From Acetivibrio thermocellus ATCC 27405 (GTDB lineage Bacteria; Bacillota; Clostridia; Acetivibrionales; Acetivibrionaceae), in NCBI RefSeq assembly GCF_000015865.1, contig NC_009012.1, forward strand, positions 1,674,001 through 1,738,000: DNA of 64,000 nt, read 5' to 3'. A model generated the notes under the pieces. That model did no database searches and was not told the DNA's origin. It saw only the letters and a program-made list of their open reading frames with translations. This document shows positions 9,369-45,089 of this stretch, in pieces; the stretch's first letter is position 1; each line of letters starts with the position of its first letter. The position numbers and the translations under genes were made by a program.

Positions 9369-10457
9369 ATGAAAAAAATTCGTCTTGCTGTAATAGGTAC
9401 GGGAATGGCCTGGGAAAGACTTCATTATCCTGCCATTAAAGAACTTGAAGACAAATATGAAATAGTTGCGTTGTGCAATCGGACCCGCAAGGATGCCGAA
9501 GAATTTGCGAAAAAAATAAACTTAAGCATGGACAGGGTTTACGATGATTACAATGAAATGCTCAAAAGACAGGATATAGATGCAGTAGATATCCTTGTGC
9601 CTATTGAATCCAACTATACGGTTTCGGAAGCCGTTGCAAAAGCCGGCAAGGACTTTATTTGTGAAAAACCTCTTGCTGCAAACAGGGAAGAGGCAAAAAA
9701 ATATCTGGAACTTTCAAAAAAATACAATGTAAGAATCATGATAGCCGAAAACTACAGATACAGCGACGAGTACAACAAAATCAGGGATATAGTAAACAGC
9801 GGAAAAATCGGGGATGTGGTATACTTTATAAAAAACAACATATCCTGCTTCCCCTGTGAAATGACAAAAGATACCTTCGCCGCCACCGAATGGAGACAGC
9901 ATCCCAAATTCTACGGAGGTGCTTTTTTGGACGCAGCAGTGCATGATATTGCGGCAATGAGGCATATTTTCGGTGCGGTTGAATGTGTACAGGCTTTTGG
10001 AAAACCACAGGCAGAAGATTTCAATCCGTATGTGTCAGTAAACGCTCATATTCTCTTTAAAAACGGAGTCATAGGGTATTATACGTACTATCCTTCGGGC
10101 ATTGAAACTCAAAAGCCGGCGGTAGGCTTTAGAATCTTCGGCACCAAAGGCGAAATATATCTTGAAGACAAGACATGCGGAATAATAAACGTGTCATATC
10201 ATGACGGTACTTCGGAACTTGTAAACTTTATTCCCGAACGGGGCTTTTACAACGAACTTTTAAATTACTACAACGCCATAAACGGTACGGAACAAATATC
10301 TGTAACCCCTGAGATGGAATATGGGGATGTCAAAATGGTTTTTGACATTTTGGACTCTGTATCCTTCCGGGAAATCATATATGTGGATGAAGAAGAACCA
10401 AAAAGGCGGCTGGAAATTGCCGATGATGAAGCAAAAATACATCCTTTCCTTCAGTAA
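9369..10457 (+). CDS. Gfo/Idh/MocA family oxidoreductase
   Basis: The 362-residue protein begins KIRLAVIGTGMAWERLHYPA, the N-terminal NAD(P)-binding Rossmann motif, and contains CEKPLAANREEAKKY, the EKP motif of the Gfo/Idh/MocA family, followed by the C-terminal alpha/beta substrate domain (GGAFLDAAVHDIAAMRHIFG). Members oxidise or reduce sugars, inositols or related compounds, and the substrate cannot be read from sequence. The ribosome site is GGAGG ten bases before ATG. It is the only + strand gene between convergent and divergent minus-strand genes and ends at a strong bidirectional terminator, so it is monocistronic. A TATAAT box at 9290-9295 lacks a convincing -35. Confidence 0.88.
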   Translation: MKKIRLAVIGTGMAWERLHYPAIKELEDKYEIVALCNRTRKDAEEFAKKINLSMDRVYDDYNEMLKRQDIDAVDILVPIESNYTVSEAVAKAGKDFICEKPLAANREEAKKYLELSKKYNVRIMIAENYRYSDEYNKIRDIVNSGKIGDVVYFIKNNISCFPCEMTKDTFAATEWRQHPKFYGGAFLDAAVHDIAAMRHIFGAVECVQAFGKPQAEDFNPYVSVNAHILFKNGVIGYYTYYPSGIETQKPAVGFRIFGTKGEIYLEDKTCGIINVSYHDGTSELVNFIPERGFYNELLNYYNAINGTEQISVTPEMEYGDVKMVFDILDSVSFREIIYVDEEEPKRRLEIADDEAKIHPFLQ

Positions 10458-19545: not shown

Positions 19546-20145
19546 TTATTTTACATTTTCCTTTTTTAATGCTTTTAATGCCGTCATGGGATGTGTAAAC
19601 AACTCAAAGACGAATACAAACAATCCCAATGCCACAACCAAATCTCCAATACTTACCACACCCATTCCCTGTCCGATAAAACCGGGCAAATGTATAATAT
19701 CAGCTAAAAATTTAAGCTTTGTGGTGCTGCTTATAACAGCATGCTTGTTGTCAGCGCCGGACATTATCATCTCCGTTACTTCTTTGATTCCGGCCTTTTG
19801 CATTGCCTCAAGGCTTACCGGCATCCTTCCTCCGTTTACAAGCATCACCAGAGCATTCAGTGAAGCCCCAAGTCCGACAAACCACAAACCGATATATTCT
19901 CTGTTGAACCAAAAGCAGAAAAGTAATAAAACAAATACTACAGCCTGAATTAAAAAGCTGAATTTTACGGCACTTTCAACCCCTCTGATTCCTAAAATCC
20001 TTGTAACGGTCTGAAGGACAAAAGCGACTATAGCCAGCCACATCTTGCGAAGCCTGATACCGGAAAAATCACAGGGTTTTCCTTTCATCCCTTGGACTGC
20101 CAGCGCCAAAACAAAGGCAATAAGCATGACGGTCAGATAAAGCAA
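19546..20145 (-). CDS. DUF5317-like integral membrane protein
   Basis: The 199-residue protein has about five hydrophobic segments and the sequence [19 protein letters not shown], which I associate with the DUF5317 family of unknown function. The start is a TTG at 20145 with GAGGTGG four or five bases upstream; the next ATG, at 20127, is too far from that site. It sits 20 bp upstream of secA in the same direction, so the two are probably co-transcribed. No function can be assigned. Confidence 0.65.
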
Positions 20146-38608: not shown

Positions 38609-41600
38609 GTTTTTATCGTACCTATGAGGAATTGAAACCTACATTGAAACTGGCAATGCTACAGAAGCAGCAGTTTTTATCGTACCTATGAGGAATTGAA
38701 ACCTATCTTTGTCAAACAGCAACCACATGAAAGCGTCGGCAAGTTTTTATCGTACCTATGAGGAATTGAAACAATCTACTATAAGTCAGTATGAAACATG
38801 CAAAAGAGAACGTTTTTATCGTACCTATGAGGAATTGAAACGGCGGTGTTGGTGCACATACAAAACTTCCAAGCACAGTTTTTATCGTACCTATGAGGAA
38901 TTGAAACCACCTCATATGTTCAGGCATACATTTGTTTATATGGCAGTTTTTATCGTACCTATGAGGAATTGAAACTCTTCTTAGCCTGCCACTGCTCCCA
39001 TCTGAAACCTTGTTTTTATCGTACCTATGAGGAATTGAAACTAAAAATATCTTCGGTAATTGCATCCGTTTTAATTTCGTTTTTATCGTACCTATGAGGA
39101 ATTGAAACATTTTAAAAAACCCATATTATATCCTCCTTTAGTTTTCGTTTTTATCGTACCTATGAGGAATTGAAACTACTTTGCTTAAGTTTTTCATAAT
39201 TATCAGATTTATCGTTTTTATCGTACCTATGAGGAATTGAAACTTGTAACCGAGAATGTCCCTCCAATGTTCTAACTTTGTTTTTATCGTACCTATGAGG
39301 AATTGAAACGTGATTGCAGACCCTGTTATTATTCAAGCCGCTGAAAGTTTTTATCGTACCTATGAGGAATTGAAACAAGCCGGATTTAGTGAGGCTTTTG
39401 GTGAGTCTAATGTCGTTTTTATCGTACCTATGAGGAATTGAAACATAAACCTCAGACATATGTCACAGCAAAAGGCGTTTCCTGTTTTTATCGTACCTAT
39501 GAGGAATTGAAACGCCCAAAAGGTAGCTGTAGCTGTTGCTGGCGCAATTGTTTTTATCGTACCTATGAGGAATTGAAACTTTTCCCCAGGTGACTAATTT
39601 CAGGAACTTTTGTTAATGGTTTTTATCGTACCTATGAGGAATTGAAACTCTTGATAAAATAAACAATTTTTCTGTTGTAGATAGTTTTTATCGTACCTAT
39701 GAGGAATTGAAACTGATGTGACTGTTGTGGTTCTCTACTGCTGCGCCTTGTTTTTATCGTACCTATGAGGAATTGAAACATTCAAGTCTCTTTTTTTTGG
39801 TGTTGTGCTTGCGAGCGTTTTTATCGTACCTATGAGGAATTGAAACTTCTATGGTCGGAGTGACTGGATTTGAACCAGCGACCTCGTTTTTATCGTACCT
39901 ATGAGGAATTGAAACAAGGCGAAATAGGTTATAGAAAAATAAGTAATATAACGTTTTTATCGTACCTATGAGGAATTGAAACAACAGGAGCAGGAAGACA
40001 ATGAAGCCATGCGCCAGGGCGTTTTTATCGTACCTATGAGGAATTGAAACCCATATCACCAAGTAAATTTGTTTCAACTCCGGCACCGTTTTTATCGTAC
40101 CTATGAGGAATTGAAACAGAGAAGGGTTTGTAGAAGACGACTTTTTTACTGTCAGTTTTTATCGTACCTATGAGGAATTGAAACCCGACGCTGACTTTGC
40201 CGAGTGTGAAGAATGGCTGAGTTTTTATCGTACCTATGAGGAATTGAAACCTTCACGGGAAAGGTTCTTGCTGTAATATTCGGCCATAGTTTTTATCGTA
40301 CCTATGAGGAATTGAAACAGGAACAGGACTTCATACAACGTCACCGTTGAAGTGGTTTTTATCGTACCTATGAGGAATTGAAACTAAGCCATCGGGCATG
40401 ACGAACCATTATCGCATAAACGTTTTTATCGTACCTATGAGGAATTGAAACATCTCCAATCCACCTCCGGTATGCGGCTGCGTCTGCGTTTTTATCGTAC
40501 CTATGAGGAATTGAAACTAAAGCTCTGGTCGGTAAATGTGCGGATTGGTCGCTCTGCGTTTTTATCGTACCTATGAGGAATTGAAACAACTCACCTTCTC
40601 CCCATTTACCGGACAAACTAACCGGTTTTTATCGTACCTATGAGGAATTGAAACGGTCTAGCTGTGTACCAGAAATACTGGCACAGCTTTTCGTTTTTAT
40701 CGTACCTATGAGGAATTGAAACGGACTGGCTGCAACCTTGAACATAAACTTGAGTATGGTTTTTATCGTACCTATGAGGAATTGAAACGAGAGGCCTTTT
40801 GGCCGGAGGAAGTTGTGGAGGTGGTTTTTATCGTACCTATGAGGAATTGAAACTCGCCATATCTACCACATAACCAGCGGTTGTTGCCAATGTTTTTATC
40901 GTACCTATGAGGAATTGAAACATAGCATTTCTTGAAAAAAACCGTAAAGAGTGGGGATGTTTTTATCGTACCTATGAGGAATTGAAACTTTTTTTTGCAA
41001 TTCCTTGTAACCCTGCTTTGCTACTCAGTTTTTATCGTACCTATGAGGAATTGAAACTACCTTTATTAGTCGATACAACACTTAAAGTCTATGACAAGTT
41101 TTTATCGTACCTATGAGGAATTGAAACCATACAGCGATGGTAGAAAGGTGAATATTGCTTCCTGTTTTTATCGTACCTATGAGGAATTGAAACTTGCCGC
41201 ACTGCCCAAAACCAGCCCAATTTTTGAACCCAGTTTTTATCGTACCTATGAGGAATTGAAACTTCGACGTAGAAAATGCAATATCTATCGGGGAATGGTA
41301 CTTGTTTTTATCGTACCTATGAGGAATTGAAACCCGAACATTTTATGCTCGTAGGGTACATCTTCGCAGAGTTTTTATCGTACCTATGAGGAATTGAAAC
41401 CACGGCAGCACAACCAGCCGCACGTCTGCTTTGGCTTGTTTTTATCGTACCTATGAGGAATTGAAACCCGTTTCCCACATCTGATTGAGTTGTTTGTTGA
41501 TAGTTTTTATCGTACCTATGAGGAATTGAAACTGCAATGATTTCGAATTCTTTGTAACATTGACTTTGGGTTTTTATCGTACCTATGAGGAATTGAAACA

Positions 41601-44600
41601 ACCATAAAAAAGTAAACTGAACCATAAATGATACAGTTTTTATCGTACCTATGAGGAATTGAAACTGCCCCATTCTTTTCTTCGCTCTCCTTCGCCCATT
41701 AGGTTTTTATCGTACCTATGAGGAATTGAAACACTTTTTGTCTTCACCTACCATGTCCATATTCGTCATAAGTTTTTATCGTACCTATGAGGAATTGAAA
41801 CCTTTTATAAATTGAAAAGGAGGATAAGTATGTCAAACAGTTTTTATCGTACCTATGAGGAATTGAAACTACCATCTGAGGGCTATTTTGAAAGGTTCGT
41901 CAGTGGTTTTTATCGTACCTATGAGGAATTGAAACTCGGTATGCACAAAGAAGTACATACCGCAATATCTCTCGTTTTTATCGTACCTATGAGGAATTGA
42001 AACGCTGCCATTTTGACAATGGTGTTCTGCTGATCTGCGTTTTTATCGTACCTATGAGGAATTGAAACTCTCGCTCGAATAAAATTGGTACATCATATTT
42101 TTCGTTTTTATCGTACCTATGAGGAATTGAAACAATAAAAAATTTAGCATACTTTATATTGACCTTGAAGCGGTTTTTATCGTACCTATGAGGAATTGAA
42201 ACTAGACATGGATTATGTGAACGTTGTGGCAGACCGGGAAAGGTTTTTATCGTACCTATGAGGAATTGAAACGACTAAGTCCTGCATCAGATGGCAATGT
42301 CGGTTCAGGTTTTTATCGTACCTATGAGGAATTGAAACAAGAAAACTGACAATGCAGAAGCACAAAGAGAAAAGGTTTTTATCGTACCTATGAGGAATTG
42401 AAACTTCACCTCCTTTTTTCATGAACTTTGGTCCTCCAAGGTTTTTATCGTACCTATGAGGAATTGAAACATCATATATGATTCATGCAATGGATGTCAA
42501 TATGGATGGTTTTTATCGTACCTATGAGGAATTGAAACGGTTTATAGGCTTTTAGTTCTCCGCTGTGTATCGCTCGTTTTTATCGTACCTATGAGGAATT
42601 GAAACCCGGCTTCACCTATCATCGCGAGAGTCGGAGCGTCTACGTTTTTATCGTACCTATGAGGAATTGAAACCCTGAAAATCTTCATTCAATGCGGCTA
42701 TGCCACTGCGTTTTTATCGTACCTATGAGGAATTGAAACAATAAATTTTCCTTTTCCATTTATTTACCTCCTTTTGTTTTTATCGTACCTATGAGGAATT
42801 GAAACTCAAGCATTTCTTTCGGTAATGGTTCGCCGAAATCAATCGTTTTTATCGTACCTATGAGGAATTGAAACATTTTCCTCCTTTATATGTATAAAAG
42901 ACCTTTATAAGTTTTTATCGTACCTATGAGGAATTGAAACGCCATATATACACCCCCTACAGGTAGCTTGGGGCAAACTCGTTTTTATCGTACCTATGAG
43001 GAATTGAAACATCTAAACGAAGAACAATTGCAAAAGCTAAATGACTGTTTTTATCGTACCTATGAGGAATTGAAACCATTGAAACCGAATGGGTTGAAGA
43101 AGGCGGTTTCTTTAGAGTTTTTATCGTACCTATGAGGAATTGAAACTACTATCTGTAAAATACTTGTAGCCTTGTCTTTTAATTGTTTTTATCGTACCTA
43201 TGAGGAATTGAAACCCAATCCATTCTTTCCGCATCTTGTACTGCTGATACCGTTTTTATCGTACCTATGAGGAATTGAAACTTTGTATAAAGTGAGGTAA
43301 ATAGTAAATATATATGCGTTTTTATCGTACCTATGAGGAATTGAAACAAATCAAAGAATCGGCAAAAGGAAAGACATACGAAATTGGTTTTTATCGTACC
43401 TATGAGGAATTGAAACTGCCTGCAATGTTCTCGATGGCATTGTCGAAGATGAGGTTTTTATCGTACCTATGAGGAATTGAAACTCCTCCCCTTGCCATGT
43501 TATGGTTTCGCCCACTCTTTGTTTTTATCGTACCTATGAGGAATTGAAACTCACCGTTAGGAAAGTTGATAGTGAACACGCTGTTAGTTTTTATCGTACC
43601 TATGAGGAATTGAAACTACAATATACACAAGCAGAATTCTTACAAATAATAAGTTTTTATCGTACCTATGAGGAATTGAAACCAAAAAGGAGGAGTAGTT
43701 CGTTTTGAGGAAATAGACGCGTTTTTATCGTACCTATGAGGAATTGAAACAGTGTTCTATATGTATTTGCTTTTCCTAAGCTTTTTGGTTTTTATCGTAC
43801 CTATGAGAAATTGAAACTTTGTATAAAGTGAGGTAAATAGTAAATATATATGCGTTTTTATCGTACCTATGAGGAATTGAAACCGCTTTTTGCTACTTTG
43901 ATTTACGCCATTTATTATTCAATGTTTTTATCGTACCTATGAGGAATTGAAACTGAACTGCACCTATCCGCCAGTTTCCAGTCATACTGGATGTTTTTAT
44001 CGTACCTATGAGGAATTGAAACTGATTTTTAATGTATTGTAATATTTCCATTTCCTTTTTGTTTTTATCGTACCTATGAGGAATTGAAACTGATTTTTAA
44101 TGTATTGTAATATTTCCATTTCCTTTTTGTTTTTATCGTACCTATGAGGAATTGAAACGAGCCGGACGTGTGAAAAACTATATCCCGGAAGATCGTTTTT
44201 ATCGTACCTATGAGGAATTGAAACTAATTAATTAGCTTAAATAAGCTATAATTAATATTGAGTTTTTATCGTACCTATGAGGAATTGAAACAAATAAAAT
44301 TGTAAGAATGAGTTAAGGGGTTCAAAAGTTTTTATCGTACCTATGAGGAATTGAAACTTTCCAGGCTCAAAAATAAACCTAATCATTGTTAAAACCGTTT
44401 TTATCGTACCTATGAGGAATTGAAACTACGGACTTGCAACCGTCTATAACTTGTTGTTATAGGTTTTTATCGTACCTATGAGGAATTGAAACAATCAATT
44501 TTGCTTTTAAATAGAGTTTAATGTATACGTTTTTATCGTACCTATGAGGAATTGAAACGCATGTTTTAAACTGTCAAGTATTTTTACTTTACAGAGTTTT

Positions 44601-45089
44601 TATCGTACCTATGAGGAATTGAAACCGGTGGATTAAATGAGCTTTATAATCTGCTGGATAAGTTTTTATCGTACCTATGAGGAATTGAAACATCAAACCC
44701 TGATAAATAGACGGCTAGATGCCATTTGTTTTTATCGTACCTATGAGGAATTGAAACTACTTGAGTCTGTCCTTGAAGGCATGGCTGAATACTGTTTTTA
44801 TCGTACCTATGAGGAATTGAAACTATAGCAAAGGACAACGAAGTAAAAGAAAACTGGAAGTTTTTATCGTACCTATGAGGAATTGAAACTCAAAAAACAC
44901 TGCGTAACTCATTATGCATAACTCCGTTTTTATCGTACCTATGAGGAATTGAAACGCATCTGTCAATTTATCACGGATTGCAGTATCGATTTGTTTTTAT
45001 CGTACCTATGAGGAATTGAAACGTGAATTCCGATGCTGTTTCCCTTTCGGGTAAGTTTTGTTTTTATCGTGCCTATGAGGAATTAAAAC
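38609..45089 (+). CRISPR. CRISPR array, 97 repeats and 96 spacers, type I-B-like repeat
   Basis: By hand count there are 97 copies of a 30-base repeat starting GTTTTTATCG and ending GGAATTGAAAC, separated by 96 spacers of 34-41 bases. The ATTGAAAC end matches the 8-base 5' handle of type I-B crRNAs, so the array reads on the + strand with the leader at 38.2-38.6 kb. Ninety-five repeats are identical; the one at 43788-43817 has one G-to-A change and the terminal one at 45060-45089 has two changes, the usual sign of the old (distal) end. Spacer 70 equals spacer 78, and 81 equals 82. No cas gene lies within the window, so the array must be served in trans. Small ORFs inside it, with FYRTYEELK or SIPHRYDKN peptides, are translated repeats. 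Confidence 0.98.

Follow-up and report, generated by a model that had tools for sequence, protein, structure and literature searches.

The attP cores of tyrosine-recombinase systems of the Islander type lie at tRNA 3′-ends. In an insertion at a tRNA 3′-end, the core is followed after CCA by the element flank, in attP and then in attL, whereas attB and attR carry the host flank. Spacer 19 of a CRISPR array in Acetivibrio thermocellus ATCC 27405 is similar to such a core, as it is identical to a tRNA gene 3′-end, the identity breaking at the CCA, and the same tRNA half stands alone beside an integrase in two viral contigs. It differs from these cores in sitting in a CRISPR array, while the element, the integrase and the other core edge are not seen. 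It resembles the usual type I-B spacers directed at phages and other mobile elements in repeat and length class, and spacers 25 and 26, its neighbors in the array, have protospacers with PAM TTA on a contig of a relative; however, most of its protospacer is common to an essential host gene. Self-targeting spacers likewise have a long identity to an own gene (here 34 nt), but spacer 19 is mismatched at positions 3–5 and finds no reported PAM at its own site. A mobile-element origin of a spacer is an already known kind; spacers from tRNA-type attachment cores were not found in a partial literature library, including the available portions of PMC12044746, PMC8482600, PMC5071653, PMC6972569, and PMC8371274.

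The window, that is, the whole 64,000-nt stretch of DNA analyzed, covers positions 1,674,001–1,738,000 within a single 3,843,301-base contig. The array and the make-up of spacer 19 are as follows (window positions).

38609..45089, + strand: CRISPR array, 97 repeats of 30 nt and 96 spacers, the last repeat degenerate
39817..39846, + strand: repeat preceding spacer 19
39847..39885, + strand: spacer 19 of 96 (39 nt)
39847..39851, + strand: TTCTA, 5 nt outside the tRNA at the PAM-proximal spacer end (host flank TTTAG)
39852..39885, − strand: last 34 nt of tRNA-Pro(GGG), identical to host C1:818604-818637 (tRNA-Pro ggg by ARAGORN)
39885-39880, − strand: variable loop GAGGTC, within spacer 19
39879-39863, − strand: T-arm GCTGG-TTCAAAT-CCAGT, within spacer 19
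39862-39856, − strand: acceptor strand CACTCCG, within spacer 19
39855, − strand: discriminator A, within spacer 19
39854-39852, − strand: terminal CCA, within spacer 19
39886..39915, + strand: repeat following spacer 19

The leader side of the array was assumed to be the AT-rich side at 38609, and this orientation agrees with a PAM located 5′ of the mapped protospacers. The three host arrays hold 96, 168, and 50 spacers (97, 169, and 51 repeats, respectively), which fit the sizes of 51, 96, 169, 78, and 42 given for Clostridium thermocellum ATCC 27405 in PMC4860712.

The initial annotation had taken spacer 19 for a tRNA 3′-end, probably of tRNA-Pro, and both points were confirmed. Read in reverse complement, the spacer runs through the 34-nt tRNA end, in the layout of variable loop, T-arm, acceptor strand, discriminator and CCA, and then through TAGAA, the 5 nt beyond; the host gene with the same 34 nt (C1:818604-818681, minus strand) was identified by ARAGORN as tRNA-Pro with anticodon GGG. 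When the whole host genome was searched with the 34-nt tRNA part, only two places were obtained even at ≤3 mismatches, namely, this gene (C1:818604-818637) and spacer 19, both exact, so a chance resemblance to a tRNA is ruled out. Over the full 39 nt, the spacer matches the host site at 36/39, and the three mismatches (spacer positions 3, 4, and 5) all fall in the 5-nt flank, where TTCTA of the spacer stands against TTTAG of the host; the identity thus ends at the gene end, the CCA. No tRNA genes were found within the window. The host tRNA-Pro site is empty, since no second copy of the tRNA end exists except spacer 19, and the next ORF (189 aa) has the same place in G009 with 63% identity. No integrase was found near the gene but one 13 kb off, of a kind present near the gene in most relatives.

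The array had been ascribed to a local type I-B system; such a system is indicated in the genome, but to call it local is inexact. Cas genes of I-B type, with Cas1b, Cas4b, and Cas3b as the best PADLOC models, and the common repeat occur in the host genome; these genes are ~1.02 Mb away and adjoin the 169-repeat array, in which 51/169 repeat copies are identical to the window repeat and 115/169 differ by one base. A PADLOC scan of 25 out of the 65 window ORFs (at least 120 aa) revealed no convincing cas gene next to the window array; the weak matches included short Cas3-helicase matches at E 1e-4 and matches to CasR/Csa3, the latter from an ORF that Pfam assigns as an iron-dependent repressor.

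The PAM of type I-B in this species is given as TTN/TNA (Walker et al., 2020, for strain DSM 1313, as quoted in PMC13199841, Table 1, and PMC10328091); this experimental PAM differs from the NCA predicted in 2016 (PMC4860712). For protospacer mapping, the 314 spacers of the three arrays were compared with a subset of the loci examined, and 13 family genomes were compared with the first 52 of the 96 spacers in the window. Spacers 25 and 26 matched a 36-kb contig of G013 at 37/38 and 35/36, respectively, and spacer 25 matched G002 too (37/38), all with PAM TTA; one common host stretch was matched with PAM TCA by two spacers, spacer 33 at 27/35 and, from the 169-repeat array, spacer 5 at 33/38. 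The PAMs mapped for these 4 other spacers, TTA or TCA, agree with TTN/TNA, and a weak match of spacer 8 (27/38, upstream GCC) was disregarded here. Inspection of the bases flanking the host tRNA-Pro, as proposed in the initial annotation, showed GTT in the PAM place, which is without the reported TTN/TNA.

Several signs show the 3′ half of tRNA-Pro(GGG) to be an attachment core used by mobile elements. A degenerate pattern of the tRNA-Pro end was found in 11 viral contigs: eight carry the whole tRNA-Pro, in one it is cut by the contig end, and two (L152 and L155) have the 3′ half alone, from the anticodon loop to the CCA and without the tRNA 5′ half. In these two, a tyrosine integrase ORF lies on the CCA side, 80 and 84 bp from the match, with other ORFs on both sides; the L152 integrase is just above the Pfam cut-off (27.7 vs. 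27.1 bits). Further, G262 has a 45-nt 3′ half alone near a contig end, with the flank TTCTA and beyond it a putative pyruvate:ferredoxin oxidoreductase-like ORF (read by eye), and a whole tRNA-Pro with the flank TTCAA on another contig. The TTCAA-side flank equals that of G136, of another genus, over 45 nt, while the tRNA 5′ halves differ, as would be expected of one element present in two hosts. Since only 18 nt remain between the tRNA part of the G262 fragment and the contig end, the fragment may be an assembly artefact, and the 45-nt flank shared with G136 is the firmer sign. A 92% copy of the tRNA half was also found in G001, 1963 bp downstream of the gene, and a 44-nt copy in G004 amid genes for a ParA-like protein, a D12 methylase, and an M78 peptidase; the 20 kb examined there contain no tRNA-Pro. 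In L152, L155, and G262, the anticodon loop marks the beginning of the core, beyond which the copies of G001 and G004 extend by a few nt. Spacer 19 thus spans the outer edge of a core used by elements.

Two other loci were considered and set aside. In L095 (G004 C1), a 93-bp direct repeat (9969-10061 and 19795-19887) flanks a 9.8-kb integrase element inside tRNA-Pro(GGG). This repeat comprises the promoter together with the 5′ portion of the tRNA, its last bases being GAGGT; the 5′-end is thus duplicated and not the 3′-end, and the element was rejected as a source type since its attP would be without the CCA end. L045 was rejected as attachment-site evidence, its tRNA being whole and about 1.8 kb from the contig end.

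The comparison with integrases and att pairs that the initial annotation had recommended was made on the viral contigs and the relatives, and it yielded the lone halves beside an integrase but not the exact 39-mer with one; the exact sequence is absent from viral_contigs, and the exact match in genome_contigs is chromosomal. In viral_contigs, the tRNA-Pro end with the TTCTA flank gave no match, nor did the flank shared by G262 and G136; 13 viral contigs carry a PAM plus TTCTATGGTCGGAG, none of them continuing as a tRNA, with 24/39 as the best match. In BLAST searches of 1045 phage and 222 plasmid records, none of the matches listed (20 each) was as close as the host site.

An attP that uses a tRNA 3′-end was one of the two origins put forward at the outset, and on balance we regard it as probable, with modest confidence, that spacer 19 came from a mobile-element attP (phage, ICE or integrating plasmid) carrying the tRNA-Pro(GGG) 3′ half. 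The reading is favored by the 34/34 identity with its break at the CCA, the GTT at the host site, the lone tRNA-Pro halves in viral contigs and relatives, which (L152, L155, G262/G136, G001, and G004) show use of this half by real elements, and the empty host site. It is weakened in that no source element was found, that the foreign part beyond the CCA is 5 nt only, that TTCTA fits the chromosomal flanks of the family, that G010 matches at 39/39 and the G262 fragment at 38/39, that whole tRNA-Pro genes of viral contigs reach 36/39, and that the host gene has no integrase close by except the common one 13 kb off. The source element, its PAM, and crRNA production and function are what we infer. 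In this scheme, a tyrosine integrase would insert the element at the tRNA 3′ half carried by the attP, the tRNA being restored. The protospacer would straddle the core edge, with 34 nt of core common to the host tRNA gene and then 5 nt of the element arm, so placed that the crRNA seed and the PAM would lie on the element side of the edge. With the seed and PAM there, the guide is predicted to bind attP of an incoming or circular element and, in a lysogen, attL, where tRNA and element join, but neither the empty attB nor attR.

The alternative that survives best, although we hold it doubtful, is a spacer taken from chromosomal tRNA-Pro(GGG) DNA, either of a related cell (through transformation, conjugation or transduction) or of an ancestor whose flank drifted later so that the present host escapes. 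With ≤3 mismatches allowed, the 39-mer matched in 12/14 family genomes (own included), and each of the 11 non-host places is a tRNA-Pro(GGG) gene, with variation confined to the 5-nt flank, except one base in G002. The sole exact match in genome_contigs, where records very close to the host genome may be absent, was in G010 (MAG DTU079, LFSC01000040.1; 39/39). It is an ordinary tRNA-Pro locus, and no unrelated gene with better identity was met, the case that the initial annotation had named against its tRNA reading. The flank at G010 runs into a terminator-like hairpin and a putative HflK/HflC-like gene pair (read by eye); together with the absence of any further copy of the tRNA 3′-end from the 20 kb downstream, and with the gene itself alone in the 20 kb upstream, this led us to reject G010 as an occupied site.

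The flank itself also bears on a chromosomal origin. By the flank profile of 11 family genomes (G010 left out), TTCTA has a probability of 0.037, vs. 0.0017 for random bases, and this resemblance to a chromosomal tRNA-Pro flank counts for such an origin. So does the G262 fragment, which matches the spacer at 38/39 with TTCTA on the apparent chromosomal side (PAM place ATT), and archaeal spacers matching chromosomal genes of relatives are on record (PMC3285040). However, chance alone would yield ~0.4 exact flank matches among 11 genomes, so the 39/39 in G010 alone says little. Moreover, the PAM place at G010 is CGT, and TTN/TNA was found at 1/15 aligned tRNA-Pro places of other cellular genomes, the G262 fragment included (G002, TTT, 36/39), while one tRNA gene would presumably be a very small target in chromosomal DNA.

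It is unlikely that the source was a whole tRNA-Pro gene borne by a phage rather than an attachment site. Whole genes do prevail among the viral contigs with the tRNA-Pro end (8/11), three of these records (L148, L150, and L045) match spacer 19 at 36/39, and another tRNA-like spacer, number 48 in the array of 51 repeats, is without a host match at ≤3 mismatches over 24 nt and weakly similar to phage tRNA genes. On the other hand, no such viral contig has TTCTA beside the tRNA end and none reaches 34/34, and viral tRNA genes would not need to equal those of the host, as att cores do. Finally, a self-targeting spacer that was taken from and acts on the present tRNA-Pro gene of the host, the other origin suggested initially, is most improbable, since despite the 34/34 tRNA part the match to the own genome is 36/39 with the mismatches in the first five positions and GTT in the PAM place, from which no self-attack is predicted and present self-targeting appears unlikely.

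Building on the attP origin, we tentatively propose, as a possibility, that spacer 19 is a form of CRISPR memory sensing whether a tRNA attachment site is occupied: it would cut attP on entry and attL in a lysogen but leave the empty tRNA alone, and selection against autoimmunity would keep this register. If this register rule is true, surviving tRNA-end spacers should begin outside the tRNA. An attachment-core spacer would name the integration target of an unsequenced element, and immunity could distinguish an essential host gene from the copy carried by an element through the placement of the seed and PAM.

A T-arm scan of the 314 spacers returned, besides spacer 19, one weak match and a spacer from the array of 51 repeats (spacer 48), against 0.455 per shuffled set. 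Spacer 48 (array at L085:2299-5642, host C1 about 716.8–720.1 kb) has the look of a tRNA 3′-end with a T-arm and acceptor strand, but no encoded CCA. In the host genome, nothing other than itself was found within 3 mismatches over 24 nt, and viral_contigs gave no match; its similarity to phage tRNA genes is weak (best E 0.2), and it is perhaps a phage tRNA gene. Spacers 19 and 48 both start outside the tRNA and run inward, as the register rule would want, two cases only that prove nothing.

Several minor observations were made on the arrays. The targets of window spacers 25 and 26 (40251-40354) lie 28.9 kb apart on the G013 contig, which is probably a prophage judging from its ORFs read by eye. 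The host stretch at C1 about 2,938,530 (L096:18526-18571), which has a tRNA-Arg and its adjoining integrase ~7 kb away, is a diverged self-target for spacers of two arrays. Identical spacers occur within the window array (70 and 78, 81 and 82), within L084 (143 and 148) and within L085 (30 and 34), and spacer 93 of L084 is identical to spacer 3 of L085.
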